Shown piece by piece: positions 808 to 15,914 of a DNA stretch of 64,000 nucleotides. The first letter of the stretch is position 1; each line of letters opens with the position of its first letter. Source of the stretch: Dethiosulfovibrio peptidovorans DSM 11002 (lineage in GTDB: Bacteria; Synergistota; Synergistia; Synergistales; Dethiosulfovibrionaceae). The stretch covers positions 493,501-557,500 of the forward strand of contig NZ_ABTR02000001.1 in NCBI RefSeq assembly GCF_000172975.1. The letters are read 5' to 3'. Made by a program: the position numbers and the translations under genes. A model generated the notes under the pieces. That model was not told the DNA's origin, made no database searches, and saw only the letters and a list, made by a program, of their open reading frames with translations.

Positions 808-2537
808 GATCTGTCCTCCTCCTGCCCTGTCCCGAGGTGACGGGCGATGAGAAGCTCGGACACCAGGCTCTCAAGCTTTTCAACGGAGGTCACGCTCTCT
901 ATCCTCTTTTCCAGTACTTCGTCCATCGGCTTCAATGTACCGTCGGGGAACCTCTTTTTGCCTAAGACCCTCTTTATGTCCGCGGGGATGGCCTTCTCAA
1001 GTATCTTGCTGTCTTTCCAGTTACGGTAGAAATCGACCATGCTCCGAAGTTCGTAGGGGAAACGAGACGAGATCGTCTCGTCTTCGAAAAGCTCGGCCCA
1101 ACATCGCAGCCTCACATCGACGGGAGAACCACCACGATATTGATCCCACCGTTCCCTAAAAGCGATAGGGGCGTTGCCCCTGGAGCGAACGACCACTGCC
1201 AGACCGTTTCTATCTGGCTCCTTGGCCAGAGTCTCAGCCTCGTCGGCGAAGCGAAGCAAATCCTCAAGAGGTTCTAAAAAGTGTCCTACTGCGATGCCGA
1301 CGGAGAGGGAAGGTGCTCGATCACTGGGAAAATAACCGCGGCTTTTCTCAAAACTCTTCTCGAAAGCCTCCGCCAAGGCCTTAGCACATTCGATACAGCT
1401 GTCCAAAGGCAGGAACGCCAGCACATCGTCTCCACCGGCGTAGATACATCTTTTTATAACCCTTTCTTTGTCTTTCTTGTTAAGAATCTTGTGTGCCTCG
1501 TTGGCGAATCCGGCCAAATCGGAGGAGAAAACCCTGTGTCCTTCCGGGTCGTTTATGGACGATATGGCAGCACCCATTTTGTCCCCATCGGCTTTTAAGA
1601 TCGCAAAATACGGATTGGGCTCGCCGATCTTTTTAGCTAGCTTTTCTCGACACTCTTTGATCTCCGAGAGATCTTCTTTCATCTCATCCTGAAGCTCCAG
1701 GATTCTGGACGGGAAGGCGGCCTCCCCCTGCAGGAGACCTTTTACCTTACTCAACGCTTCCTCAAATTTGCCGTACTCTTCGGGAGCCAGTCGCTTGGCT
1801 TTTTCAATCCATGAAGACGCAGCAAAATCATCGACAGAAAGGAACGTTTTTTTCGAATCATCGATGGGGCTCGCTACCCTTTTTATAAGTCCCAAGGCAT
1901 CCAGCTGTTCCGATGACTTGAGCCTCAATGTCAGTCGCTTAGAGATATCGGACTTAAGGACCTTCTCCACGAGTTGTCTGTCTTTAAAAACCGACTCGTT
2001 TCTGCCGTCTAAAGACGACTTTTCCACCTGTCTCTTATCTGGATCGCCGGGCTGATAAAAATCTCGACAGTTTTTCCTGGCCCCCATTAGGCGGCCCACC
2101 TTGTCCCTGGCATCCTTGTAATTCGATTTACCATCATAGGGCACCCAGACGGAGAAGAACTCCAATGCCTGTTCTATCTGATCGTCCCAGAAATCTCTAT
2201 TGACCAGCTCTCCGTACTCTCCAAGAACCTGGTCGCCGTAGCCCTTCAGGACCGACAGGGCCTTTTCCCTGGCCTGACGGACCACTTCCTTTGGATCTCC
2301 ATTGGGAAGCTCCGCCAGTATGACGTTGGCAACGTTAGGGTCTCTGCCGTCGGAGACGTTCAGAGAGTCCTTTTGGGGGAAAATGAGAACACCACCGTTC
2401 TCTCTGACCGATCGGGCGGTCTCCATACAGATCTCCGAAAGGAGCCGGGATCCGAACCACAGGTCCCTTGTTCTCCTGGCGGCTGCGATAAAGGGCTGGA
2501 CGGGACCGATGGATATGTTAATCAGATAGCCGCTCAT
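804..2537 (-). CDS. cmr2: Cas10/Cmr2 large subunit without HD nuclease domain
   Basis: The product has 577 residues, far shorter than usual Cmr2 (about 850-1000). It opens directly at the first palm domain (ISIGPVQPFIAAARRTRDLW), so the N-terminal HD DNase domain is absent. KADGDKMG near residue 318 is the first palm motif, and YAGGDDVLAF has an intact GGDD at 368-371, the catalytic site that makes cyclic oligoadenylate. The Cys-rich zinc finger of typical Cmr2 is not seen; only isolated Cys residues occur in that region. Start and stop overlap cmr1 and cmr3 by four bases each. The protein should therefore signal rather than cut DNA, consistent with a CARF protein in the same locus. The family call is firm; the lack of nuclease activity is inferred. 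Confidence 0.93.
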   Translation of the reverse strand: MSGYLINISIGPVQPFIAAARRTRDLWFGSRLLSEICMETARSVRENGGVLIFPQKDSLNVSDGRDPNVANVILAELPNGDPKEVVRQAREKALSVLKGYGDQVLGEYGELVNRDFWDDQIEQALEFFSVWVPYDGKSNYKDARDKVGRLMGARKNCRDFYQPGDPDKRQVEKSSLDGRNESVFKDRQLVEKVLKSDISKRLTLRLKSSEQLDALGLIKRVASPIDDSKKTFLSVDDFAASSWIEKAKRLAPEEYGKFEEALSKVKGLLQGEAAFPSRILELQDEMKEDLSEIKECREKLAKKIGEPNPYFAILKADGDKMGAAISSINDPEGHRVFSSDLAGFANEAHKILNKKDKERVIKRCIYAGGDDVLAFLPLDSCIECAKALAEAFEKSFEKSRGYFPSDRAPSLSVGIAVGHFLEPLEDLLRFADEAETLAKEPDRNGLAVVVRSRGNAPIAFRERWDQYRGGSPVDVRLRCWAELFEDETISSRFPYELRSMVDFYRNWKDSKILEKAIPADIKRVLGKKRFPDGTLKPMDEVLEKRIESVTSVEKLESLVSELLIARHLGTGQEEDRS

Positions 2538-3805
2538 CGGGACACCTCCTGAAAACCTTGAGATTTGGCGTAGGCCATGAAGGCATCAAATACGTTCTTA
2601 CCTCCCATAGGCTTGCAGTTCATGGCCTTTGTATCCTCCAGAGAAGTCTCCACGCTATCCTTAAACTCCTCACTTCGGCCATGACTTACCCACTTCCCAG
2701 ACAAATCCAACGCCCTAAGAAAAGGAGGAGGTAATAAAAACAAGCCCGAACGCCATGAACCATCCACAAAAATGGGTCTAGTGATAATGGGGCTGGACAT
2801 TCTCTCCGCACCCGATGGTTTTATGGTTGTTGGGGAAGGATCCCTATCCGAACGAGCCCGATTTTTATCCCCATCAACGAATTGGAAAATAATAGGCAGG
2901 CCGAGATGAGCCCTCGGGAAAGACCTCCGTGCGACATTGGGGACTATCGGCTCGGAGTGTTTTGGGGTAGAGCAACCGGTAATATCTCTTATAGCATCGG
3001 CCTCCGGCCAAAAAGTACGACCTGGAACATGAAGCACCTTGCCATTATTTAATACTTTCTCATGAATAGCCCCTCTAAAACCCTGCCTGAAGGATCGATA
3101 AACCTCAACTGAATCTCTCCAAGCTGCCATGGCTCCTCCCTTAGGATTTGATATCAACACGCTAGCAAACACGCCATCAGACAAGCAATTTGAGAGATAG
3201 TCCTCTCCCAGATCAGTCCCATCGTTATGCAAAGCTCCAAGACCTCTCCTGGTACGGCTACCTATTCCACCAAAGGAAAGCCAGGCTCGCAACGCACACA
3301 AGACCTCATCTCTAACAGACACCTTTATCGGAGTAGTTTTCTTTATATCCTGATATCCATCGATATAGTCTGGAGCGGAGACGTTCAAATCGAAAGAAAG
3401 CCCTTCAGTAGCAACTTCCTGTCCGTTCTGCTTGGCGGAGAATAAGGCATACTGCTCTGGGCCAAAATTTTTAAACCGATCGACAGCCTTAGTTTCAATT
3501 GAAGTGTGTTTTGATACCGATATCCTCACCGGGCTGGCTTTTTCCGTATCCCCCCATATCTGGGACTCCCTGTGGTAAAGCTCCTGGGAGGAGCTGAACT
3601 TTCTGCCACAGGTCGCCCTCCACCAGAAACGAAGGTGCCCTCGAATCGCCGTTCCCCGAACAGGGTGTTTCCCGTCTACCTCTCCCGCTTTAACCCCTCC
3701 GCCGAACATCGGGGTTACCACCGAGATACGGTATGTCTCCTCGAACGTTCCGTCGCCAAGGTTGCTTTCAGGTTTGGCCGGAGGCTTACTTCCTATAGAG
3801 CGCAT
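2534..3805 (-). CDS. cmr1: Cmr1, type III-B CRISPR RAMP protein
   Basis: This is a 423-residue RAMP protein. The N-terminus reads ISVVTPMFGGGVKAGEVDGK, then RGTAIRGHLRFWWRAT, then QIWGDTEKASPVRISV. This is the Cmr1 pattern: TPLFxGG, RxxSIRGxLRFWWRA, and EaxIFG followed by a beta strand. Cmr1 joins the Cmr effector complex at the 3' end of the crRNA. A second glycine-rich stretch, GGIGSRTRRGLGAL near residue 190, is the G-rich loop typical of RAMPs. A GAAGGAG Shine-Dalgarno precedes the ATG at 3805. A 74-base gap separates it from the Csx20-like gene upstream, the largest gap in this unit, so a weak extra promoter is possible there. Confidence 0.9.
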   Translation of the reverse strand: MRSIGSKPPAKPESNLGDGTFEETYRISVVTPMFGGGVKAGEVDGKHPVRGTAIRGHLRFWWRATCGRKFSSSQELYHRESQIWGDTEKASPVRISVSKHTSIETKAVDRFKNFGPEQYALFSAKQNGQEVATEGLSFDLNVSAPDYIDGYQDIKKTTPIKVSVRDEVLCALRAWLSFGGIGSRTRRGLGALHNDGTDLGEDYLSNCLSDGVFASVLISNPKGGAMAAWRDSVEVYRSFRQGFRGAIHEKVLNNGKVLHVPGRTFWPEADAIRDITGCSTPKHSEPIVPNVARRSFPRAHLGLPIIFQFVDGDKNRARSDRDPSPTTIKPSGAERMSSPIITRPIFVDGSWRSGLFLLPPPFLRALDLSGKWVSHGRSEEFKDSVETSLEDTKAMNCKPMGGKNVFDAFMAYAKSQGFQEVSR

Positions 3806-3879: not shown

Positions 3880-4263
3880 CTACTTCAATTCAACGCTACA
3901 GGAAGCAGAACTCACGAAACCCTCGTGCCGAAACACCATGGTCTTCGACACCGACCCGTCGGGATTACGCCTCTCGTGGCATTCACGCTTAGAAAAGGCG
4001 TACAGAGGCACGACATCCCTATCGAGCAGAGCACGCTCCAGACAGGGCATAAGATATGGAGCCCCCCCGATCATGGCAAAACGGACTCCCCTCTTAACCG
4101 CCAGATCGGCGATGGCATTCGCACGCATTTCCAAGGTGGATCGATCGGGAACATCAGAGAAGGTCAAGAGCTTCGACACCTCATTCTGATCGTAGAGATC
4201 GACGACTCCCGCCAAGACCTGCTCCGGCGTAGCCCTATGCTGGGTCAGATTTAAAACGATCAC
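3880..4263 (-). CDS. Csx20-like small protein, possible CARF-type ring nuclease
   Basis: The product is 127 residues from a GTG at 4263, chosen because AGGAGG lies seven bases upstream and the start overlaps the phosphatase stop (GTGA). The C-terminal half (MIGGAPYLMPCLERALLDRD, then VPLYAFSKRE, then an FRHEGF ending) matches the pattern I know for Csx20: a Gly-rich loop followed by PVYATTKRE and FKHVxF. Csx20 proteins are small CARF-like proteins proposed or shown to cleave cyclic oligoadenylate. The N-terminus (VLNLTQHRATPEQ) belongs to a wider family also seen outside CRISPR loci, so a different nucleotide-binding role is possible. Its place between PP2C and cmr1 links the two modules. Confidence 0.6.
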   Translation of the reverse strand: MIVLNLTQHRATPEQVLAGVVDLYDQNEVSKLLTFSDVPDRSTLEMRANAIADLAVKRGVRFAMIGGAPYLMPCLERALLDRDVVPLYAFSKRECHERRNPDGSVSKTMVFRHEGFVSSASCSVELK

Positions 4264-5258
4264 TCGGCCGCCTCCTTTATATTCAGTACTTCCCATTTAA
4301 GCCTTTCCCTATGCCTTCTTACCGTGGACCTGGCCACCTCGAGCTTTATGGCCCTATCCTTGGTTCCCACGGATTCGCCCCGATATTCCAGGTCTCTAAG
4401 ATAATCCATATGGGTACAGTGATAGTTTTTCCTGTTCGTTCCCAAGAGTTCCGACCGCCTGGAGTCCTCTGTTCGCGCCAGCTCCGACGGAGACATGATG
4501 GAAGCTCCTAACACTGCCAGACTGCAATCGTCGCCAGTTCTCTCCCTTATCAATGTAGACAGATTGAGCTCCAACGCCGATGAAACCTGTTTCTCTCCGG
4601 CGGAGGCACACCAATCGACCATGGAGGCGCAGGCCCTGGCTGGATGAAAAGCTCCGTTTCTCTTTCTGTAAAGCGAGGCCGCCGGGCCGTCGGACATTAG
4701 AACGAATCCCTTGGTTCCCTTGTATACTTTTCCTCTGTAGAGACGCAGGCTTTTAGCCCCGTCTTTTCCCGTCAGAAAAACGGTCTGATTGGCGAACTCG
4801 CCTCCTTCAGGAACGCTGAGCATCCTTGCTCCTTTCTTGGACACCTGAACTATGGCGCCATCCCCTACGTGACAGGCCAGATATCTGTCGCCCCTCACTG
4901 CCACGGCCAGCAGGGTCGAGGCCATATCGTCCAGCGACAAACCCGCCCTATCTGCCGCCGCCTTCACCGCTCTCAAAAGGTCCTGATAAAGAGCTTCCAC
5001 CGCCTTATTCTTTTTGAATTTAGACAGTTCGTCGAAACGATCGGTCAAGGATCTTCCCGCCGCCTCCACTGCTGCCTCGGCCCCAATATGAGACAGAGGA
5101 CGGGATCCGGCCCCGTCGGCCAGTGAGGCGCATATCACCCCCTTCCGCCTGACGAGACCGGTCCTGTCCTGACAGGGCGTTCCGTTTTTGACGTGGTCTC
5201 TGCCGATAGCCCTGGCGTGAGCGCCGTTCCAGAGCTTCAGAGTGATCGAATAACCCAT
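4260..5258 (-). CDS. PP2C-family Ser/Thr phosphatase of a TerY-P triad
   Basis: I take the start at the ATG at 5258, two bases after the vWA stop; an upstream TTG at 5276 lacks a usable ribosome-binding site. PP2C metal-binding motifs occur in order: SLADGAG, ACHVGDGAI, VLMSDG and TGDDCSLAVL, which supply the Asp ligands of a metal-dependent phosphatase. About 70 further residues follow the catalytic domain, rich in Arg and Lys and ending in a helical stretch (RSTVRRHRERLKWEVLNIKE) that could bind a partner or nucleic acid. A vWA protein, PP2C and kinase with zinc ribbons together form the TerY-P triad known from Ter-linked stress systems. It probably reverses phosphorylation by the PIN-kinase. 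Confidence 0.85.
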   Translation of the reverse strand: MGYSITLKLWNGAHARAIGRDHVKNGTPCQDRTGLVRRKGVICASLADGAGSRPLSHIGAEAAVEAAGRSLTDRFDELSKFKKNKAVEALYQDLLRAVKAAADRAGLSLDDMASTLLAVAVRGDRYLACHVGDGAIVQVSKKGARMLSVPEGGEFANQTVFLTGKDGAKSLRLYRGKVYKGTKGFVLMSDGPAASLYRKRNGAFHPARACASMVDWCASAGEKQVSSALELNLSTLIRERTGDDCSLAVLGASIMSPSELARTEDSRRSELLGTNRKNYHCTHMDYLRDLEYRGESVGTKDRAIKLEVARSTVRRHRERLKWEVLNIKEAAE

Positions 5259-5260
5259 GA

Positions 5261-5938
5261 CTACAGCGATGCCCAACCCTCGAGTCCCTTGAGATCCAGT
5301 TCGACCTTCTCTCCCGGGATGGACTGAGAGACCTTGGAGACGCTGGAGCTGAGCCAGCGGAAGAATTCCTGGAAGTTGAGGTCCTTCAGCCTCAGGGGAT
5401 TTCTGGCGGGGGAGAATTCCTTCAAGGTGTCGGTACAGGCGTTATCCCCGATGGCTATGGGAAAAACGGTAAGCTTGCCCTTATCCACCAGTGCGCTGGT
5501 TTTGGCCGCGGCGAGCTGCCAATCGTCGTTAGGCTTTCCGTCGGTCATGATGACCATCCAGGGCTGATAGTAGTCCACCCCGAGAGTGCGATAGAGCTCC
5601 TTGCGCTTCTCCAGGGACTCGAGGGCGAGGGATACGGCACCTCCCATCCTGGTCTTGCCTATGGCTTTAAGCTCGGGGATATCGCACTTTTCCAGGGGAC
5701 CGAAGTCCACCTCCTGAGTTACCTCGTTGCTAAAAGAGATGACGCTAACCTCCGCCGAATAACGGGCCACATCGTCGTCCTTAAGGGACTTGAAGAAGAG
5801 CTCAACTCCACGGTTAAGCTCCTCTATAGGAGCTCCAAGCATCGATCCGCTGACGTCCAGCACCAGAGAGACCGGCACTCTGGGAGTGGGATTCTCCACC
5901 ATTTCATTCTGATCCAGTATCATGTTGAGGCTTGCCAT
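5261..5938 (-). CDS. TerY-type von Willebrand factor A domain protein
   Basis: The product is 225 residues, made almost entirely of one vWA domain. The metal-ion-dependent adhesion site is complete: DVSGSM near residues 28-33, a Thr in KTRMGGAV near 93, and MTDGKP near 130. The length and simple architecture match TerY proteins, which act as adaptor or scaffold partners of PP2C and kinase. An AGGAGG lies seven bases before the ATG. The gene starts a tightly packed unit running through PP2C, Csx20-like, cmr1, cmr2 and cmr3, and its leader carries the 23-bp element at 5978-6000. It has no signal peptide, so it is cytoplasmic. What it binds here is unknown. Confidence 0.87.
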   Translation of the reverse strand: MASLNMILDQNEMVENPTPRVPVSLVLDVSGSMLGAPIEELNRGVELFFKSLKDDDVARYSAEVSVISFSNEVTQEVDFGPLEKCDIPELKAIGKTRMGGAVSLALESLEKRKELYRTLGVDYYQPWMVIMTDGKPNDDWQLAAAKTSALVDKGKLTVFPIAIGDNACTDTLKEFSPARNPLRLKDLNFQEFFRWLSSSVSKVSQSIPGEKVELDLKGLEGWASL

Positions 5939-5977
5939 GTCGACTCCTCCTTTGAGTTTTTATAGGCTCTCTTGCCT

Positions 5978-6000
5978 TATATTTATTTTTTTAGAGACAT
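5978..6000 (-). promoter_or_regulatory. 23-bp repeated element, copy 1 (upstream of the vWA-PP2C-csx20-cmr unit)
   Basis: On the minus strand it reads ATGTCTCT, seven A, then TAAATATA, and it is identical to 7905-7927. Its 3' end is 39 bases before the vWA start codon. Directly after it comes a short hairpin (AGGC, six-base loop, GCCT) and then AAAGGAGG. No TTGACA-like box sits at the expected distance, so this is not an ordinary sigma-70 promoter. It overlaps the region just after the PIN-kinase stop. Confidence 0.7.
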
Positions 6001-6003
6001 CTC

Positions 6004-7860
6004 TCAGTGAACACAGGAGGCCTGAACGAAGGATCTGGAGACCTCTCTACAGGTCGGACAGGAGGCCGGGATATGGCCTCTCAAAACGCTGTCGGCCAGG
6101 AACTTGGGAGCCTCGTAAAGCTCTCCGCAGGAGACGCATCTAAGCGTCACGGAGGACCTGCAGTCGGGGCAATAGGTGGCCTTGCCACGACTGGTCAGAT
6201 CCTCCGCGAGAAATAGGGGCATCCCGAAGGTTTTTCCGCAATGATCACACTGAACCATGACTTCCTGGCGGCAGTCATCGCAGTAACAGTCCCTTCCCCT
6301 CTCTTTGAGACTTTCCAGGGTTGGAGAGCTTACCTTGAAAGCCTTTCCGCAGAGGGGACAGACGTGATCGACCGGGTCCACTATCTTGGGCGAGGAGGGA
6401 AAGAGCTCGTCGGAAAAGTAGCCTTCCTCCAGACCACGACGGTAATCCATGAGCATCTCGAGCCACATAAGGGCAGAGAGGCGGTCTCCCCTGTTGAATA
6501 CAGCCTCGAAGCCGTCTTTTATCGCCCTTGGAAGGTTGCTGAAGATATTGCGCCAGGGCCCGCGGGGAACGTTTTCGCTTCGTTTTTCTCCAACGGCATA
6601 GGGAAAGTTTCCGAGCCTTATGTTTTCGCCGGGATCTCCTCCACCTTGATGGGAATATGGAGGCTTGCCGGGAAGCAGGATCATGAAGATAAGGGTGGCC
6701 AGGGCGAATTCCTCATGAGCCTTGGTACGCAGGAAGAACTTGAAGTCCTTGCCCTGTATCTCAGGGGCGGTGAAATTCGCCGTTCCGACCGGGCAGGGAT
6801 AGTTCTCCAGCTGATAGCTGTCGGTGTCCACGAAGTAGGCTTTTCCCGTCCGGTCCAACATTATGTTCTGAGGATTTATGTCTCCTAAAAGGACGTTTCT
6901 ACCGTGAAGAGCACAGATCTTTTCCGTCACGTCTATGGCCAGATCGACCAGATTCCGCCTGGTCCATTCGGGAAAGTTTCTCTCGAAAAGGGGTTTGACG
7001 AAGAGGGCTTTATGAAGGGATATGCCTTCGGCCCTGTCCATGACGTATCCGACAAATCGACCGCACCCGTCCCTGAGGATGTCTCTGGGCCAGCAGATTC
7101 CGGTGGTGGAACATCCGGCATCCACCATTTTCTCCAGCTTAGGCTCCTGATAGGAGTGGAGTTTTTCCGGACGATAGATCTTGCAGACCCGACCGTCGTC
7201 GGCAAGCCAGCAGGTGCCCTCTCCTCCGCTGCCCAGGGAGGAGACCATGGTGATGTAATCGGAGCTGGTGTGCAGTACCGTTCCCTCCACGACCGGCTCG
7301 GGAAGAGCTTCCAGAGAAACGAACTCTACAGGCGAGGTCCCCATAGGAAATACGGAATCGGCAGAGGGTAGAGCAAAAGAGGGAGCTAGGGCCTCGTGGG
7401 AGACGAGCCTTTTTCCGTCGCTGGATATGCCAAAGGCGGCGATATCCCTTTTTCTATCCACCGAACCGATATCCCTGAGAGCTGTCAGATCTCGCCCGAG
7501 CTTTTTATCCTGGGTGATAAGACAGAGATCGTAATCGGTCATAAACCTGGTGAAGAGGTTTATGAAGAGTTGATCGGGGAAACGGTCTCCCGCCTCTCCC
7601 CTCAAAGAGAGCAACCCCTCTTTCTGGTAGGAACAGAGAATACGGTATCCCTCTCTGGCCAGCTTGCCCCTTCGGGTGTCCTCGTCTTTGAACTTGAGAA
7701 GTTCCTGCACCACTCCCCGAGGGACCACGACCTGAGCCCCCTCCTCCGCCAGTATCGGCGCCAAGACATCCATGAAGAAAGTCTGTGCTCTGCGATGCAT
7801 GATAGCGCAGGTGTCGACGAAGATACGTCCACTGGACGTCATGTATTTCTCCAGCTCCAC
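6004..7860 (-). CDS. PIN domain - protein kinase - triple zinc-ribbon fusion (TerY-P kinase)
   Basis: The product is 618 residues from a GTG at 7860 preceded by AGGAGG. Residues 10-155 form a PIN-like nuclease domain (VDTCAI with Asp16, VVQELL, then LITQDKKLG). Residues about 200-470 are a Ser/Thr kinase: glycine loop SLGSGGEGTCW, VCKIY lysine, catalytic loop HGRNVLLGDINPQN with Asp327, VDTD replacing DFG, and TAPE. Residues about 500-610 hold three CxxC...CxxC zinc ribbons (CPLCGKAF, CDHCGKTF, CVSCGELY, each with a later CxxC). Kinase plus zinc ribbons is the TerY-P arrangement; the N-terminal PIN nuclease is an addition. It is a single-gene unit between a terminator and the vWA unit, with its own 23-bp element. 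Targets are unknown; neighbours are obvious candidates. Confidence 0.87.
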   Translation of the reverse strand: MELEKYMTSSGRIFVDTCAIMHRRAQTFFMDVLAPILAEEGAQVVVPRGVVQELLKFKDEDTRRGKLAREGYRILCSYQKEGLLSLRGEAGDRFPDQLFINLFTRFMTDYDLCLITQDKKLGRDLTALRDIGSVDRKRDIAAFGISSDGKRLVSHEALAPSFALPSADSVFPMGTSPVEFVSLEALPEPVVEGTVLHTSSDYITMVSSLGSGGEGTCWLADDGRVCKIYRPEKLHSYQEPKLEKMVDAGCSTTGICWPRDILRDGCGRFVGYVMDRAEGISLHKALFVKPLFERNFPEWTRRNLVDLAIDVTEKICALHGRNVLLGDINPQNIMLDRTGKAYFVDTDSYQLENYPCPVGTANFTAPEIQGKDFKFFLRTKAHEEFALATLIFMILLPGKPPYSHQGGGDPGENIRLGNFPYAVGEKRSENVPRGPWRNIFSNLPRAIKDGFEAVFNRGDRLSALMWLEMLMDYRRGLEEGYFSDELFPSSPKIVDPVDHVCPLCGKAFKVSSPTLESLKERGRDCYCDDCRQEVMVQCDHCGKTFGMPLFLAEDLTSRGKATYCPDCRSSVTLRCVSCGELYEAPKFLADSVLRGHIPASCPTCREVSRSFVQASCVH

Positions 7861-8011: not shown

Positions 8012-9412
8012 CTACAGACAGTGCCTCAGACACAGCATATCAGAACCTTCTTTGATGGCTTTCTGGACGGCTCTGCGCACGATAAACCTCAATTCCCTGA
8101 AGTTACCGGGGTATTCCTTTTCGACCAGGTACTTTATGGCATCCAAGGATATCTTGGGAACTCGCTCGTCCGGATTTACATCTTCGTCCTGCAAGATCAG
8201 GCTAAGCAACAGTTTACGGTCTCCCTGTCTTTCTCTTATAGGGGGGACCTCCACCACATGGTCGAAACGGTGAAGAAGGTCGGCTCTAAACCCATCGTCT
8301 CCAGAGGAGACCCATTCTTTAAGGGGGCGATTCGTTGCCGCCACCAATATCACCGGTACAGGTATGGGCCTGTGATAGCCCACCGGTGTGATCGTTCCAC
8401 CGTCCATGTAGGTTAGGAGCCTGGTCTGGTGATCCGACCTCATGTCGCCAATTTCGTCCAGAAAGACGACCTTGCCTACATTGGAAGGAAAAAATCCTAA
8501 GAGATCCTCTCCCTTTTTCATGCCGGAGTAAGCCCCTTCCACCGCCCCGAAGAGCATGGTGTCCACTAGATCGGAGGGAACGGCGGAGATGTTCATCGAT
8601 GCAAATCCATCGTCCTGTCCGGGGAACAGGGCTTCGGCAATCCATCGAGCCAACAGACTTTTACCGGTGCCGGTCTCTCCCAAAAGAAGGATCGAGGGTA
8701 CGCGAGGAAAGTCAGAGCCTTTTTCACTAAGGTAATTGGCTACAATCTCTATTTTTTGACCGTCTCTCTTGACGAACTTTTTTACCTCCTCTCTGTAAAT
8801 ACGGAGGCTGCAAAGGGCTCTCTCGTCCGTGACGGATCTCAGACCGGACTTAAGGTCGTCCATCAGTTCCTGGGTGGAGGGATCGGCACATAGGCTGAAA
8901 AAGCTAGGACCGGATCCCTTAGCTATCTTCGCCTTCCAGGCTACGCTTTTATAGAGGACCTCCTCTCCTGATTTTTTCCGTAATTCCGCCCTAAAAAGGG
9001 ACGTAAGAGTGGATTGAAGCCTGGCCAACTCGTCCAGGTCCCTGTCCTGTTGGTCGGTGAGCCCCAGGTGGCTTTGACGAAAAATACCTACCACGGAGGA
9101 ATATATGTCACCGTGGAGCTTCTCTACAGAACCGTCCCAGGAGGAGTCCTTCAAGACGACGATCACCGACAGTGTCTTTTCTCTCTTGCCTTTCAGGCCA
9201 TCCAGAAGTTCGGCGGGGAAACCCATTGCTACGGTGGCCTTTTTCGGATCGTCCACGATCTCGAAATCGACCTCTTTCATCTCTTCTCGACGGGAAACGC
9301 TCAGCAAACATCTTTCTTTCCACTCTGCCACCAGAGTCTCCAGCCCTCTTTTTACCGCCTCATCTCCGCACAAAAAGACCTTGAAAAGAGATGCGCTCCT
9401 AATTCTCGCCAT
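8012..9412 (-). CDS. Sigma-54-activator-like AAA+ ATPase lacking a DNA-binding domain
   Basis: The product is 466 residues. The AAA+ domain has Walker A GETGTGKS at 245-252, Walker B FLDEIGD with Asp319-Glu320, and a sensor II region (EYPGNFRELRFIVRRAV) of the bacterial enhancer-binding protein type. The sigma-54 contact loop GAFTGA is replaced by GAYSGM at 293-298, and the protein ends soon after the AAA+ lid with no Fis-type helix-turn-helix. The first 200 residues (VFLCGDEAVKRGLETL onward) are unrecognised and may sense a ligand or partner. It is the last gene of the operon with the fused polymerase and overlaps the 326-residue gene by 14 bases. A polymerase remodeller is the natural guess; direct sigma-54 activation is less likely. 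RtcR-type regulators are the nearest relatives I can name. Confidence 0.82.
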   Translation of the reverse strand: MARIRSASLFKVFLCGDEAVKRGLETLVAEWKERCLLSVSRREEMKEVDFEIVDDPKKATVAMGFPAELLDGLKGKREKTLSVIVVLKDSSWDGSVEKLHGDIYSSVVGIFRQSHLGLTDQQDRDLDELARLQSTLTSLFRAELRKKSGEEVLYKSVAWKAKIAKGSGPSFFSLCADPSTQELMDDLKSGLRSVTDERALCSLRIYREEVKKFVKRDGQKIEIVANYLSEKGSDFPRVPSILLLGETGTGKSLLARWIAEALFPGQDDGFASMNISAVPSDLVDTMLFGAVEGAYSGMKKGEDLLGFFPSNVGKVVFLDEIGDMRSDHQTRLLTYMDGGTITPVGYHRPIPVPVILVAATNRPLKEWVSSGDDGFRADLLHRFDHVVEVPPIRERQGDRKLLLSLILQDEDVNPDERVPKISLDAIKYLVEKEYPGNFRELRFIVRRAVQKAIKEGSDMLCLRHCL

Positions 9413-10379
9413 TTAGCTCTCTCCTCAGACGTTTTTTCCAGGAATCGAAGATCTTGCACCTAAAGTTCTTCAGCTGGTCTTGAGACCTTCCGTAGCCGAA
9501 AGGGGCAAAGGGGTTGCCTTCATCCTCGATAAGCTTTGAGTTCAACTTCGCGTGGCTCCATCCTTTTTTAACGAAAGTCACCAGGTCGTTTTTGATCATA
9601 GTTTGATACTGTTCGTGCAGCATCCATCCATCGACCGCACCGTCAGGCGTTTTCGTCCACGAGACCGATTGATCCAAAAAAGATCTCTCGTTCGCTCCGT
9701 TTTCTTCGCACCATTTGGGAAGCCATTTCCTGCGAAACCAAAGCCAGTCGGCCACTTCCGGTAAGCCTCCGCCTCGGTAAGATCCGAAAAAGGAAGCTAC
9801 CGTCATTAGACACCTAGTTGATCCGGGAACGAGAATCGTCATTCTATTCCAAGACGGTATAGCGTTGGTTCCCAGCCAGGTCGGGGCGAATATCCCAGAT
9901 GCGTTCCAAGGGGCAGGTTGTCTTTCTTCGCTCTCCATCCACGGAAAATATCTCCTGTAGTTCTCGGTAGACCACTCTATTAGAAGACGAAGGCTCTCGC
10001 CCAGCCCCTCCTTGTACGGATCTCCTCCCCTTCCTGCATGACACCAGACTAGCTTTTCTCCCGTCCAGATCCAGACCGGACGACAATAGGCGTCCAGTTT
10101 ATTCGAGAGATAGAAGGGGTCTATTTCCTCTTCACAAAAATCTGTAACTTCGTCGTCAGACCGATCGTTCAGATCTACGTCGACATCCTGAAGCTCTTCC
10201 TGGTCTCGTTCTTCCCATAACTGCTCTATTAAATCCGACATGTCGTCATCAAGACAGGCAGCCAACTCGGATTTATTGAGGTACTGCCAGGCGCTGGCTC
10301 TGTTTTCCGCATTTACGGCAAGCTCTGTTTTCTGAGAGGTTTTAGTCCTCTGCCTGCTCTGTAACCTCATAGCGCCCAT
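9399..10379 (-). CDS. Unrecognised 326-residue protein, possible partner of the fused RNA polymerase
   Basis: I do not recognise this family. It starts 1 base after the polymerase stop, with GGGAGG eight bases upstream, and overlaps the AAA+ gene by 14 bases, so it should be made with both. The N-terminal 15 residues are basic. Residues 40-90 are strongly acidic (DDDMSDLIEQLWEERDQEE, DVDVDLNDRSDDE). The rest is Trp-rich (WIWTGEKLVWCHAGRGGDPY, WLWFRRKWLPKWCEEN) and ends basic (WKKRLRRELNGEN). No membrane segment or signal peptide is seen. Its position would suit an assembly, specificity or regulatory subunit for the neighbouring polymerase, but nothing in the sequence proves that. No sigma region 2/4 signature could be read by eye. 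Confidence 0.75.
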   Translation of the reverse strand: MGAMRLQSRQRTKTSQKTELAVNAENRASAWQYLNKSELAACLDDDMSDLIEQLWEERDQEELQDVDVDLNDRSDDEVTDFCEEEIDPFYLSNKLDAYCRPVWIWTGEKLVWCHAGRGGDPYKEGLGESLRLLIEWSTENYRRYFPWMESEERQPAPWNASGIFAPTWLGTNAIPSWNRMTILVPGSTRCLMTVASFFGSYRGGGLPEVADWLWFRRKWLPKWCEENGANERSFLDQSVSWTKTPDGAVDGWMLHEQYQTMIKNDLVTFVKKGWSHAKLNSKLIEDEGNPFAPFGYGRSQDQLKNFRCKIFDSWKKRLRRELNGEN

Positions 10380-10380
10380 T

Positions 10381-13300
10381 TCAAGAACCTCCCTTCGCCC
10401 AATCTTGATCCAGCATCACCTGGGCCTTCAGTCCCGACATGGATTCGCTTCCACCTTTTAGTAGGATGTCGTCGATCCTCTCGTAGGCCATAGCCGCAAG
10501 GGCTCTATTCTCACGGTCCGAGGCCCATGAGGATAGTCCTTTCGGAGCTCTCAAGGCCAGTTCGAAGAGGACGAGACGCTGAGGAAGCTCCTTGAAACGG
10601 TTGGATCTCTCTCCGTCTTCCGAGCCTGGGTCGGTCAGGACCTTGTCCAGTAGGTCTCTGTATCGTTCGGACAGGTCTCTTATAAAGCCTTCCTTTTCCT
10701 CTTGGAACAGGTTCACGTCGGACTCGACCTTTTTTACCTCGTCGGACAATAACCTTTTGCCTGTGATCAGCAACCGTCTCAAATAGCCTATAGGGTCGCC
10801 CTCCACGCCCGATCCGACGTCGTGGAATCTCTTCATGGCTAGCTGGGTTCCTCTTTCGCCTATGCCCATGGCGGCGTTTAGGCCAACCGGCATACCCACC
10901 GGCACAGCTTCATCGCCGACTCTGCCGATATCGGCACCGACGCACCGGGAGCACACTCCTCTTTCCGACTGAGCACAGGTGATGGGGCTGGCACAGGAGG
11001 CTATGAGGACCGGACCTTGACCTATGTTTATCGTTTTAGAGACATCCTTTAGCCTATCCAGGTCTTCAGCAGTGATCGGTTTATCGAAATCCACAAGATC
11101 GATACGTTCTTCCGCTTTTTGGCCGATCCTGTAACACCAGCGACCGAGCAGGACCGACTCTAGGGCACTACCTACGTCATCCCCGGGGAATATCTCCGGA
11201 GATTCCCAGAGACAGCCTCCTTTAGGCTTCAGATGATGGCCCTCGGGAAAAGTGTAGTTTATCGAAAGCCTACGTTTCTCTTCGCCAACGGCCTGAACGT
11301 ATATCTCCATTCGACCCTCCGAACCGCAGTCCTCCGATTCGGTCAAGGTATCGTACAGTCCTTCCGCCAGCAGCCGGGAGAGGTATCCTGCCTGAGCAGT
11401 GGCGAGTTTTTTGTCCCCCATAGAGTCTCTGGAGGCGTAGCTGTAGACGAAGAGTTCGTCGTCGGACAGGCCGGTCCAGAAACAGCCAGGAATCCAGCTT
11501 TCGTGGAGAGGTTTGTAGAGGATCGGATCAGGCTTTTTCGGGCTAGGCTTTTTCTTACCTTTAGCCGCCATATCTTCTTCGTCAATAGCTGGCGCAAGTT
11601 TCTCTGATGTCCTTGAGTAGATATCCTGAAGGCCGATAAAGCCGCACATATGACGAAGATCCGAGGGCTTCCCTTTGGCTTTGCTCAGGACCATTCTACC
11701 TAGGTGAGAGTTTGAGTGGCTTTCAAGCCATCTCGAGATCACCCCTTCAGCGGCTTTTTCGCACTTTTGATATTTTGCCTTAAGCTCTCCAAGCTCCTGT
11801 TGGGTTATCTCTTGCGGGGTGTAGTCCTCGGTCTCCTCCAGACTACGGGCCTCTTTCCTGTTTTCCTCTAGTTCAACAAACAGGGCATCCAGCTCGTCTG
11901 GAGGAAAGCTGCAACACCCCGTCGAGGCGGCACAGATATCTCGTTGTAGCTTCCCAAGATGGATCCACCAGTCTGGATCGTCCTTCACCATGGCGTTTAC
12001 CAGGTCACCTAAGGCTGTTGCGTAGTCCTTCGATTTATCCTCCACGTCCTCGACAGGATAGCAGTAGCCCAGGTATTCTTTCTTTGTCTCCCTGTCCAGA
12101 GCGCTCCATCCCAGAGCCAAATCCAGACCGGAGGCTATCATAAGCTTGCCGTCTCCGATGCGGCCGGGAGTGGCCTTCAACGTAAAATCGCTAAGGTCCT
12201 TTATCCAGGGATATTGGGGCAGATACACCGCCATGGTGTCGCCGTCAAAGTCGGCGTTAAAACCCTCTGTGACCATTGAGGGAATGGCCATGGCCTGTTC
12301 CTCCCATACGGTCCACTTGAAGGCCTGAACGGAGTGGCGGTGCAGGCTCGGCTGACGGATCAGGATACACCACAGGGGGCCACTGGCTTCCAATGCGGTG
12401 TTGATCATCTCCGCGGCCTCTTTAACCCTGACTGCGTCTCCACTGTGGGCTTTTTTACGAAGATCCTTTAATTTTCCCTCCAGGCCAAGTATATCCAGGC
12501 CGTTGTGGCCCTTCAGGAGTTCCACCGCCATCTGGACCGGCAGCCGGACCTCGTCCAGAGCCAGCTCCGGACGGCTTACTATGACCGCCCTTCCACTGTG
12601 GTCGGTCCTGTGGCCCAGAACGTGCCTCCGGAGGATTCCTCTCTTGCCTTTGACGCAGTTGGAGAGGGTCTGCCAGTATTTTTCGAGAGTGCTCAATATC
12701 GAATAAGCCCTCTCGAGGGAAACCGACTTGCTCCCCGTCACCTTGCCGAACTCGGCCATAAGGGCTCTGTAGCAGTTCGCCAGGGCTTCCTGCCCTATCA
12801 GGGTATCGCGATCAAACGGTATACCCCAGCCACCGTCAAGTCCCTTAACTGTACATAGGGACAAAGCCATGGGAGAACAGGGCATCTTAGGCCGAGATCT
12901 CTCCTCCTCATTTTTTATGACGACATTATTTGCTGCAGGGAGTTCATTAAGGACACCGAGTATAGGATGGATCGAGTCTCCATCGAGCGAGGCCAGAGCC
13001 TTCTGCATCTTATCGAGGGCGCTATTTCGCCAGTCGACAGTCATCCTACCGACGATATCCTCGTTACTGAGACAGAGAGCTACGATTTCCGAGACGGCCG
13101 ATTCTTTTTCTGAGTTCTCTCTGTCCATGAAGGTTACGACCCCTCGAGAAAGACCGGAGTTATCCACATCTCCGGAGTTCAGAAGGGATTGGGCAATCCT
13201 ACCGGATAAGGAAGGTTCACGGTCCTTTCCGGACAGTGGTCTCTCCCATACTACCCCGTGTTCCTTTTTCTTCGATTTAAGCCCTGCAAGCCACAGAAGC

Positions 13301-15459
13301 TTTTCCAGGGCATCCATGGTGAGTGCCTGGCCGTCTTTCTGTCTTTCTCCCGAGGCCCTAAGGCTGGACAGGAGGTCCAGGGCGTGGCTGTCCAAACCGT
13401 TTTCGGAACATAGTGGGCCTCTGCTGAGGATGGCCCAGTTCTCCATCTCTCCGAGCCTCTGTCCAGCTTTGGCTCCGCCGGAGGTTGGCTGGCCGATGAA
13501 ACGGTTGGAGGGGCCGTCGGTCCCCCGGGCCTGGAGCTTTTTGTCCACGTGATGGACTAGCCGGGAGATGTACTGATAACCGCAGAAGGCCCGGACCTCT
13601 TTCTCCTGGGCTCCTTCCCTATACCGGACGGGGAAGCCGCTGCCTTTGTCGGTCTCGTCACTCAGGCCAAGCTTTTTGAGGATCGTCAGGACCGTGTTTC
13701 GCCATTCTTCTCCACGGTAGAGACCGTCGCGTTTTACCTCGTCGTCTATGAGGCCCCATTCCCGGGCCTTCAAGGCCAGGCCGTGGCCCATCTCCAGTAT
13801 CTGGCCCAGGTTTTTACGGCCTACTATGGAGCAGGGGGAAATGATCAAATCCACCGTCTCCACACGTTCCGTACCGTCGGGGCCTTTCAGGACGACCTTA
13901 GGCATGGCATCGTCTTCCTCTATTTTTGTGACGACTCCTTTGTTGCCGTTCCTTCCGGTGATTTTATCCCCAATCCTGAGGGGCCTGACGATGTCGAACT
14001 CGTAGACAATCTCGACCTTGGTCGGTATCGAATCCTTTCGTTTTCTATCAATGACTGATTTTACCGACACATTGACCAGTGTCCCAGGCATAAACCACGG
14101 ATAGGAGTGGCTCTTTTCACCAGCTAAATATCCGGGCAAGGGCAGCGGCTTGTCGAAGATATAGGTTTTCTTCTTTTTTCCAGCCAGATCACGGACCTGC
14201 TCCTCAATTTTCTCGATTAGTTCTGAAAATTCCTTAACCCCGGCCTTGGGAAGCATCTCGTTCTTCAGCTCGTAGATCTTTCCGGTTGGCTGTTTTTTGG
14301 GCTTCATCTTCAGCTTTTCAGCGAAAGATCGAGAGACCACCAGACCGTCCTCGTAGGTAAGTCCCTTCCAGGGCATAACAGCCACCAGGGCATTGACTCC
14401 AAGATAGGGCTTAAACCGCCCCGCCTCGTCCAGATGCCCCTCAAGGGCCTCTATTTTTTTACCTCTGGCTCCCTCTATGTACCCAGGGACCAAAGAGGGC
14501 TCGCCACCCTCTATATTCTGTTCCGCCTGTTTGAGGTTTTTGCCTCCCATCATGAGCCTAGGCCCGTCGCTGTGATGGGGATAAGGAACCATACCGACGG
14601 CCACGGAGAAAAGGCTTTGTTCCTCGCCATCTTCAGCCAGCTCGACCCCCTTGCCGCCGTCACCCTGATGGGCCGTGGCGGTCATGAAAAGCTGAAGACC
14701 TATCTTCTCCGACTCGGGAGTGTGGAATGGGCACAGTCGATTTTTATGGCTTTTGTGGGGAAGCCTGACCCTGCCGTTGGTCTTGACCTTGGAGGCCATG
14801 GTGACCTGTCTCTCCAGCTCCAGGCAGCGAAGGGAGTTGCTGTCGTCCAGAGGCAAGGCCTTCACCAGTCCCGACCGGACCGATCGGGAGGTCCAGAAGC
14901 TGTTTAGGTTGGACTCCAGCTTACACAGGATAACGAGCATATCCTTCTTCAGTTTATCTTCAGGTACCTTCTTCTTCGATTCCGACAGCTTTTTGAGAGC
15001 TCTTTCGGCACGTTTTATCGAGTACTCCAGGTTAGACCACCAGGGGGAGTAGATCTCAAGTTTTTCCAGGTCGGGGACATCCTTGTTCGTTAAAGACGTC
15101 AGATACGTATCGTTCCGCGTTTCTTCGTCAAAGTTCTCTCCCTTTTTTTTCTTTACTTGAGTCCTCTTGCGACCTACCATAGCCAGGCTCCACTGGGATC
15201 TATCGTCGTCCAACGCAGCGACCTTAGATCCGATCGGCAGTATCATCGTTACCGTACGTTCGATATCTATGCCGTGAGCCGAAGCTTTTATCGATATGGG
15301 AGCCATGACGGCACCGCCGTTCAGCTCCTCTAAAACCTGAAAGTCGTTAACCTCTAAAAAGGGAGACAAAACGTCGGAGCGGCACCTCTCCACGACGGTC
15401 TTCAGCCTTTCGACTATCTTATCTATTTTAATTTTATCTTTATCGGGATCGACCTTCAT
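10381..15459 (-). CDS. Compact single-chain RNA polymerase: fused beta and beta-prime catalytic cores
   Basis: The product is 1692 residues. The beta half shows CPFHTPES at 243-250, the MMGGKNLKQA segment, NALVAVMPWKGLTYEDGLVVS, GDKITGRNGNKG at 497-508, and VHHVDKKLQARGTDGP before QPTSGGAKAGQRLGEMENWA. The beta-prime half shows LRRHVLGHRTDHSGRAVIVS, the active-site NADFDGD at 1068-1074 (all three Asp kept), a bridge-helix segment ending AQAGYLSRLLAEGL, four Cys fitting the second zinc site, and the trigger loop GIGERGTQLAMKRFH at 1532-1546 with its His. Active site to trigger loop is 464 residues, close to the Escherichia coli spacing. Large parts are missing, including the beta lobes and the beta-prime N-terminal zinc region; housekeeping beta plus beta-prime total about 2700. 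The start has AGGAGG eight bases upstream and overlaps CYTH by four bases. Its context excludes a housekeeping role. Confidence 0.95.
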   Translation of the reverse strand: MKVDPDKDKIKIDKIVERLKTVVERCRSDVLSPFLEVNDFQVLEELNGGAVMAPISIKASAHGIDIERTVTMILPIGSKVAALDDDRSQWSLAMVGRKRTQVKKKKGENFDEETRNDTYLTSLTNKDVPDLEKLEIYSPWWSNLEYSIKRAERALKKLSESKKKVPEDKLKKDMLVILCKLESNLNSFWTSRSVRSGLVKALPLDDSNSLRCLELERQVTMASKVKTNGRVRLPHKSHKNRLCPFHTPESEKIGLQLFMTATAHQGDGGKGVELAEDGEEQSLFSVAVGMVPYPHHSDGPRLMMGGKNLKQAEQNIEGGEPSLVPGYIEGARGKKIEALEGHLDEAGRFKPYLGVNALVAVMPWKGLTYEDGLVVSRSFAEKLKMKPKKQPTGKIYELKNEMLPKAGVKEFSELIEKIEEQVRDLAGKKKKTYIFDKPLPLPGYLAGEKSHSYPWFMPGTLVNVSVKSVIDRKRKDSIPTKVEIVYEFDIVRPLRIGDKITGRNGNKGVVTKIEEDDAMPKVVLKGPDGTERVETVDLIISPCSIVGRKNLGQILEMGHGLALKAREWGLIDDEVKRDGLYRGEEWRNTVLTILKKLGLSDETDKGSGFPVRYREGAQEKEVRAFCGYQYISRLVHHVDKKLQARGTDGPSNRFIGQPTSGGAKAGQRLGEMENWAILSRGPLCSENGLDSHALDLLSSLRASGERQKDGQALTMDALEKLLWLAGLKSKKKEHGVVWERPLSGKDREPSLSGRIAQSLLNSGDVDNSGLSRGVVTFMDRENSEKESAVSEIVALCLSNEDIVGRMTVDWRNSALDKMQKALASLDGDSIHPILGVLNELPAANNVVIKNEEERSRPKMPCSPMALSLCTVKGLDGGWGIPFDRDTLIGQEALANCYRALMAEFGKVTGSKSVSLERAYSILSTLEKYWQTLSNCVKGKRGILRRHVLGHRTDHSGRAVIVSRPELALDEVRLPVQMAVELLKGHNGLDILGLEGKLKDLRKKAHSGDAVRVKEAAEMINTALEASGPLWCILIRQPSLHRHSVQAFKWTVWEEQAMAIPSMVTEGFNADFDGDTMAVYLPQYPWIKDLSDFTLKATPGRIGDGKLMIASGLDLALGWSALDRETKKEYLGYCYPVEDVEDKSKDYATALGDLVNAMVKDDPDWWIHLGKLQRDICAASTGCCSFPPDELDALFVELEENRKEARSLEETEDYTPQEITQQELGELKAKYQKCEKAAEGVISRWLESHSNSHLGRMVLSKAKGKPSDLRHMCGFIGLQDIYSRTSEKLAPAIDEEDMAAKGKKKPSPKKPDPILYKPLHESWIPGCFWTGLSDDELFVYSYASRDSMGDKKLATAQAGYLSRLLAEGLYDTLTESEDCGSEGRMEIYVQAVGEEKRRLSINYTFPEGHHLKPKGGCLWESPEIFPGDDVGSALESVLLGRWCYRIGQKAEERIDLVDFDKPITAEDLDRLKDVSKTINIGQGPVLIASCASPITCAQSERGVCSRCVGADIGRVGDEAVPVGMPVGLNAAMGIGERGTQLAMKRFHDVGSGVEGDPIGYLRRLLITGKRLLSDEVKKVESDVNLFQEEKEGFIRDLSERYRDLLDKVLTDPGSEDGERSNRFKELPQRLVLFELALRAPKGLSSWASDRENRALAAMAYERIDDILLKGGSESMSGLKAQVMLDQDWAKGGS
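11023..11045 (-). promoter_or_regulatory. Degenerate copy of the 23-bp element inside the polymerase gene
   Basis: On the minus strand it matches the 23-bp element at 20 of 23 positions: ATGTCTCTAAAA, then CG in place of AA, then ATAAACATA. It lies in frame in the polymerase gene (codons for DVSKTINI), same orientation as the other copies. It is not followed by a hairpin. It could be an internal promoter or chance. Confidence 0.35.
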
Positions 15460-15914
15460 CCATCGTTCCTCCTCTTAGGGAATCCGTCTTTAGCCAGTTT
15501 TTTGTTTTTCCATCGGGGATCCCATGTAATTTCTTCTACAAGATCTAGCCACCCAGGCAAAGGAGGAACCGGGGAAGATTCGTTCGGCAACTCCACCTCC
15601 GCCACGGCCAATCCTGGGAGGTCGGGATAGATATCCACCTCCCATGAACCGGCCAGATAGCGGGTCTTTTCGATCCTCCAAGGGGCGAAGCATCCTACAA
15701 GACGAAAAAGCCAAGAGGGAATAGGGCTCTCCCACTCCCCTCTGACCATCCCGCCTCCGGTCTTGACAGTGAAGAAGCAACTTTCCACGACAGACCTGAG
15801 TCTGACCTCCAGGGATTTAGACGCCAGAAGATACCTTTGATCTATCCTGCGACGATCGCCCCTCGGGGTTCCGACGACCTTACAGAGATATTTCCTCTCG
15901 ATCTCGGTTCCCAT
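15456..15914 (-). CDS. CYTH-domain triphosphate tunnel protein
   Basis: The product is 152 residues, one whole CYTH domain. The signature EIERK near residues 4-8 fits ExExK, and RYLL, VRLR, FTVK, EKTRYL, WEVDIY and AVAEVEL supply the alternating charged strands of the tunnel. A DPRW motif follows. CYTH enzymes hydrolyse inorganic, thiamine or RNA 5' triphosphates, or make cAMP, using divalent metal. The gene sits between the CARF-HD gene and the fused polymerase, overlapping the latter by four bases. A role on triphosphorylated nucleotides or RNA ends made by that polymerase is plausible but unproven. The six-base gap to the upstream stop argues for co-transcription. Confidence 0.87.
   Translation of the reverse strand: MGTEIERKYLCKVVGTPRGDRRRIDQRYLLASKSLEVRLRSVVESCFFTVKTGGGMVRGEWESPIPSWLFRLVGCFAPWRIEKTRYLAGSWEVDIYPDLPGLAVAEVELPNESSPVPPLPGWLDLVEEITWDPRWKNKKLAKDGFPKRRNDG

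Follow-up and report, generated by a model that had tools for sequence, protein, structure and literature searches.

Small RNA polymerase accessory elements carrying an acidic disordered segment include the delta subunit (RpoE) and sigma region 1.1. Sigma54 (RpoN) works with AAA+ partners of the RtcR/NtrC/PspF kind. Divergent multisubunit polymerases of phages may carry an extra subunit: gp226 of AR9 is a subunit for promoter specificity whose sequence shows no detectable similarity to sigma, and gp68 of phiKZ is reported to be necessary for assembly of the elongation-capable enzyme (PMC9209446). CARF7-HD proteins and RtcR-like CARF-AAA proteins belong to type III CRISPR loci (PADLOC, PMC4012209). 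We compare with these systems a protein, here called X, that is encoded between a fused RNA polymerase and an AAA+ ATPase in the window, the whole 64,000-nucleotide stretch of Dethiosulfovibrio peptidovorans DNA that was analysed.

X would resemble gp226 and gp68 as an additional subunit of a pared-down, divergent multisubunit RNA polymerase, and like them it lacks detectable sequence similarity to sigma (PMC9209446). However, gp226 is larger (464 aa), has no recorded long acidic N-terminal tail and has no sequence similarity to X, and X differs from the subunits of the jumbo-phage non-virion polymerases in having an AAA+ activator and CRISPR genes for neighbours. With sigma54 it has in common the kind of AAA+ partner and an acidic segment, and the model of one family member may weakly resemble the sigma54 C-terminal region. 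In contrast to sigma54 it has no sequence homology or Pfam domain of that family, its acidic segment is N-terminal, its length of about 300 aa leaves no room for the full sigma54 plan, and the neighbouring AAA+ protein has no helix-turn-helix (HTH). The acidic disordered segment on a small polymerase accessory element recalls delta and sigma region 1.1, but X has no HARE-HTH or sigma70 Pfam match and its tail is at the opposite end from that of delta. Two other proteins of the operon belong to the type III CRISPR loci with CARF7-HD and CARF-AAA proteins, or near to them; neither a fused RNA polymerase nor an X-like protein at such loci was found in the openly accessible literature. An extra subunit on a divergent polymerase is of a known kind, while the X family itself was previously unrecognised.

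Organization of the locus

The reading frame of X occupies positions 9399–10379 on the minus strand, begins with ATG and encodes 326 aa; its assignment draws on the open reading frame, the family alignments A1 and A3, and co-occurrence. Upstream lies the gene of the fused beta-beta′ RNA polymerase (10381–15459, minus strand, 1692 aa), which ends at 10381 and leaves a 1-base gap, and downstream the gene of a sigma54-activator-type AAA+ ATPase (8012–9412, minus strand), whose start at 9412 overlaps X by 14 bases. The coordinates and both junctions given by the first-pass annotation are thus exact, as is its identification of the two neighbours. It was also correct that the operon offers the polymerase no recognisable alpha, omega or sigma partner.

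That annotation mentioned neither the leading gene of the operon nor the CRISPR genes downstream. The first gene of the conserved operon encodes a CARF7-HD protein of 806 aa (15920–18340, minus strand; PADLOC CARF7--CARF_HD, 1129 bits), which is also matched by the fused CARF_CYTH_HD family of PADLOC at 225 bits. Downstream on the minus strand are the type III-B genes for Cmr1 (2534–3805) and Cas10/Cmr2 (804–2537), the latter with an intact GGDD motif (AGGDDVLAFL). The usual gene order in the carriers is CARF-HD, polymerase, X, AAA+. X always lies directly behind the polymerase, the junction being -4, -1 or +1 bases in most loci, and -4 junctions between the X and AAA+ genes are found in many loci.

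Two features of the window are largely or wholly its own. Between the CARF-HD and polymerase genes is a CYTH-like protein (15456–15914, minus strand) with an EIERKYL signature, assigned by eye and with no Pfam match; among the loci compared it is present only here and in one further genome, G109 (L036, 15835–16332), the two belonging to one genus. Behind the AAA+ gene, positions 4260–7860 on the minus strand encode a PIN-kinase-zinc-ribbon protein, a vWA protein and a PP2C phosphatase, which have no counterpart at the other loci compared and look like a separate kinase/vWA/phosphatase triad.

Sequence, fold and distribution of X

X was described by the first-pass annotation as acidic and rich in tryptophan, and so it proves, with 18 Trp in 326 aa (5.5%) and a strongly charged tail. 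Residues 1–101 (10077–10379, minus strand) are modelled with low confidence, are probably disordered and have a net charge of -15; the most acidic block of 30 aa, residues 56–85 (10125–10214, minus strand), has a net charge of -14. A tail of 73–101 aa is found in 13 of the 13 members compared, with a net charge of -8 to -24 and in each case one 30-aa block of -10 to -19, so that the family keeps the charge of the tail but little of its sequence. Residues 102–326 (9402–10076, minus strand) form the predicted folded core, which is aromatic and has invariant Trp, Gly and Pro residues in alignments A1 and A3 (Trp103, Trp112, Trp168, Gly203 and Pro207 in A1; pLDDT of the homologous core about 80). 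It ends in a basic helix, residues 302–323 (9411–9476, minus strand), of STLQRKKLxxWKKWW type in the relatives, and the last 25 residues are basic in most members. The family alignment has no invariant His, Cys, Ser, Lys or acidic residue in the core, and an enzyme is thus unlikely. The mean pairwise identity is 28% for X, compared with 44% for the polymerase, 45% for the AAA+ protein and 42% for the CARF-HD protein, making X the fastest-evolving of the four. The lack of catalytic-type invariants and the fast evolution are as expected for a binding or specificity factor. Among close relatives dN is lower than dS, though there are few changes; this, together with homologues at the same position in 15 genomes, argues that X is not a chance reading frame.

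No recognisable relative of X was found in Pfam, NCBIfam, PADLOC, PHROGs or the PDB, and none in phages, plasmids or viral contigs. Matches to SURF2, slr1957, CheR_N, DUF4250, sulfotransferase and TTHA0252 involved single members or had E > 0.01, and were read as chance. X has no Pfam or NCBIfam match to sigma70 (regions 2 and 4), and no RpoA or RpoZ sequence domain; the sigma54 domains PF00309, PF04963 and PF04552 (AID, CBD and DBD) were absent from the 10 members tested. Homology was also rejected by hhalign, with probabilities of 0.3% against a nine-sequence sigma54 profile, 0.2% against AR9 gp226, and 0.1–0.3% against the polymerase, the AAA+ protein, the CARF protein and host RpoB/RpoC. 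Subunits like gp226 may nevertheless diverge beyond sequence detection. A likeness by eye of the C-terminal helix to the RpoN box received no support from profile comparison. X thus stays unrecognised, as first described, and the confident match to an unrelated enzyme that had been named as evidence against a subunit role was not found in the profile and structure searches.

The model of X from the window is poor (pLDDT 58), and X of genome G045 was modelled in its place for the fold search. This second model has a pLDDT of 67 overall and about 80 over residues 75–281, with a disordered tail. Foldseek returned nothing from the PDB or BFVD for either model; the search is informative mostly for residues 92–281 of the G045 model, the tail (1–74) and the parts outside 92–281 being barely tested. 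With VIA-align the top match of the G045 model is sigma54 in an RNA polymerase complex (8rec chain M; 137 aligned residues, RMSD = 5.6), at a Z of 5.0, where values below 8 may reflect a common arrangement. It spans residues 75–281 of the model and 272–465 of sigma54. The lower matches, many of them winged-helix domains, have a Z of 3.8 and below (about 2–4), and the model of X from the window gave no match in the second fold comparison. The sigma54 match is a weak lead that would fit the neighbourhood, and we do not read it as homology.

A single-protein search with X over 185 Synergistota genomes found 8, and a search with the polymerase found 14; at every sufficiently complete locus of these 14 an ORF of about 270–330 aa lies directly behind the polymerase. 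The profile A3 of X finds 15 of the 185 genomes, comprising the 14 polymerase carriers and G020, where a contig end preserves the C-terminus of the polymerase upstream of X and the AAA+ gene downstream. Polymerase loci without X had also been named as evidence against a subunit role; every polymerase genome among the 185 has X, and X is accompanied by the polymerase in 15 of 15. The linkage is strict in Synergistota, in the sense of co-occurrence in one operon, which is not in itself proof of contact. Of the approaches that had been suggested for X, profile–profile search revealed no homology, the model of X alone is poor, and co-occurrence is complete. In one genome, G055, which retains the polymerase and X, dapF (L048, 4493–5350) takes the place of the AAA+ gene behind X; with no Cas10 found in that genome either, this locus is possibly decaying.

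Outside Synergistota, no polymerase of this kind was found by its profile at E 1e-100 in about 200 genomes that sample the large phyla thinly, and its distribution may be wider. The viral-contig polymerases that match the profile are mostly two-gene phage enzymes, with few fused, and none is adjoined by X, CARF-HD or the AAA+ protein of the operon. Three viral contigs (L057, 6033–13019; L061, 6093–12923; L074, 6027–12917) have fused beta-beta′ reading frames of 2276–2328 aa, longer than the polymerase of the window and without X-like neighbours.

The polymerase, the AAA+ protein and the CRISPR link

Profile matches identify the polymerase as a beta-beta′ fusion with the features of a double-psi barrel multisubunit enzyme. 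The NADFDGD, GDKxTGRxGNKGVV and trigger-loop motifs are present. Alignment A2 shows no variation in NADFDGD, the beta lysine motif or the trigger loop, so the enzyme should be active. The polymerase profile covers residues 440–1125 of the 1280 of host RpoB and 483–1108 of the 1663 of host RpoC. On comparison with host RpoC nothing was detected before the RPLKSL segment of beta′, that is, of the zinc finger, lid, clamp-helix coiled coil and rudder, and the C-terminal parts of beta′ were likewise undetected. In cellular RNA polymerases the part comprising the zinc finger, lid, clamp helices and rudder includes the dock for sigma region 2. With this dock undetectable, ordinary sigma docking is doubtful and a dedicated factor plausible; the polymerase is probably unable to employ a standard sigma factor in the usual manner.

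The AAA+ protein contains the sigma54-interaction domain PF00158 (E = 1.1e-32), following an N-terminal domain of about 165 aa, and a protein of this type adjoins X at nearly all loci. The Walker A and B motifs and FRxDLxxRF are retained, together with a GAFTGA-like loop having an aromatic-Thr/Ser pair ([FY][ST]). The loop is partly kept, as GAYSGM in the window and as GSYTG, GSYTS or GAFTDA in relatives. No DNA-binding HTH is present, the proteins ending after the AAA+ lid. In profile comparison the N-terminal domain gave no match to the CARF domain of the CARF-HD protein. In G080 (L118, 1788–3160) two ORFs that overlap encode the AAA+ protein, one for an N-terminal domain of 143 aa and the other for an AAA+ domain of 314 aa; this is either a real split or an assembly error.

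Searches with two Pfam domains detected no sigma54 in 8 of the 14 carriers tested (G020 was outside this test), including genomes that are 97–99% complete. These eight are all of one family, and the other six have sigma54. In the eight the AAA+ protein must act on something else, most naturally on X, which is adjacent and co-inherited, or on the polymerase itself. Where host sigma54 was inspected in Synergistota (L049–L052, L094) it ends PRRTAAWHGK or PRRTITWHRQ, compared with the usual RpoN box ARRTVAKYRE.

A strong Cas10 match is present in 12 of the 15 carriers. It is on the same contig and within about 10 kb of the polymerase in 10 of those 12, and about 30 kb away in G037. There is no match in G045 or G055, and a weak GGDEF-like match only in G036; the cases without Cas10 include fragmented assemblies. 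From the CARF domain and the neighbourhood, it may be a Cas10 product that controls the operon. No description of a CRISPR-linked polymerase operon as a whole was found in the open literature, subscription papers and the 2020 CARF classification being outside the scope.

Function of X

The first-pass annotation had proposed X as a specificity or assembly subunit. The strict linkage to the polymerase, the undetectable sigma dock and the lack of any other role that fits favour such a subunit, while sequence comparison does not separate assembly from specificity. We consider that there is about an even chance that X is a dedicated initiation factor of the fused polymerase, remodelled by the AAA+ protein under CRISPR control. 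It would then be a non-enzymatic subunit acting at initiation, sigma-like in manner and not by detectable descent. The folded core would dock on the polymerase, and the acidic N-terminal tail might close off either the DNA channel or the surface by which the core itself binds DNA, until the AAA+ protein, at the expense of ATP, remodelled X and lifted the block. The machine would be switched on when a Cas10 product was read by the CARF-HD protein, and possibly also by the N-terminal domain of the AAA+ protein. Binding, gating, remodelling and the CRISPR trigger are all steps that we infer. The initiation role draws on the strict linkage, the missing sigma dock, the presence of the AAA+ protein in carriers without sigma54, the fast evolution of X, the weak fold match and the precedent of gp226. 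Against it stand the hhalign probabilities of 0.3% for sigma54 and 0.2% for gp226, the absence of a Pfam sigma domain, a Z of 5.0 that is in the range of common arrangements and the blank Foldseek search, as well as G055, where the lack of an AAA+ gene next to X suggests that this protein may not be obligatory.

The same missing parts of the polymerase would be explained if X were a structural or assembly subunit, replacing the beta′ clamp module or an alpha scaffold and staying on throughout transcription. The clamp, rudder and C-terminal parts of beta′ are undetected, the operon has no recognisable gene for alpha or omega, phiKZ gp68 offers a precedent (PMC9209446), and X accompanies the polymerase even without the AAA+ protein in G055. 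However, a buried scaffold would not usually diverge so much faster than the polymerase (mean identities of 28% and 44%), and a clamp has no need of an acidic tail of 73–101 aa; such a role is rather unlikely. That tail, with its charge and not its sequence kept in all 13 members, would suit an inhibitor, an acidic mimic of DNA or RNA that acted like an anti-sigma factor or guard and was removed by the adjoining gene's AAA+ product on a CRISPR signal. An extra polymerase without a guard could be toxic, and this function overlaps that of the initiation factor. Yet most members have a basic C-terminal helix, and a plug would not require so large a folded core; we regard a pure inhibitor as distinctly unlikely.

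The overlap of the AAA+ start codon with the end of X, and the -4 junctions between these genes in many loci, would also fit an X that serves solely the AAA+ protein, as its cofactor or regulator, and makes no contact with the polymerase, in the way that PspA serves PspF. Such a function is improbable given that G055 has X and the polymerase with no adjacent AAA+ gene, and that the AAA+ protein has an N-terminal domain of its own. The lack of a recognisable fold or family would agree with X as an unrelated passenger of the operon, an effector or enzyme, but X has no catalytic-type invariant residue and holds its strict place behind the polymerase in 15 of 15 genomes, making this highly improbable.

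If X is a dedicated initiation factor, it would represent a second, independent solution to the problem met by sigma54 and its ATP-driven activators. A broader proposal, which we make tentatively and think more doubtful than the initiation role itself, is that in some Synergistota type III CRISPR immunity has an RNA polymerase of its own at its command. X and the AAA+ protein would form an ATP-driven initiation machine, an analogue of sigma54 and its activator built from an unrelated factor, and recognition of invader RNA would start a private programme of transcription or RNA copying. If this is true, CRISPR signalling would control a private RNA polymerase, an output that we did not find in the openly accessible literature. 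The polymerase, X, the AAA+ protein and the CARF-HD protein make up a small, testable set for how an RNA polymerase starts without the usual sigma dock.
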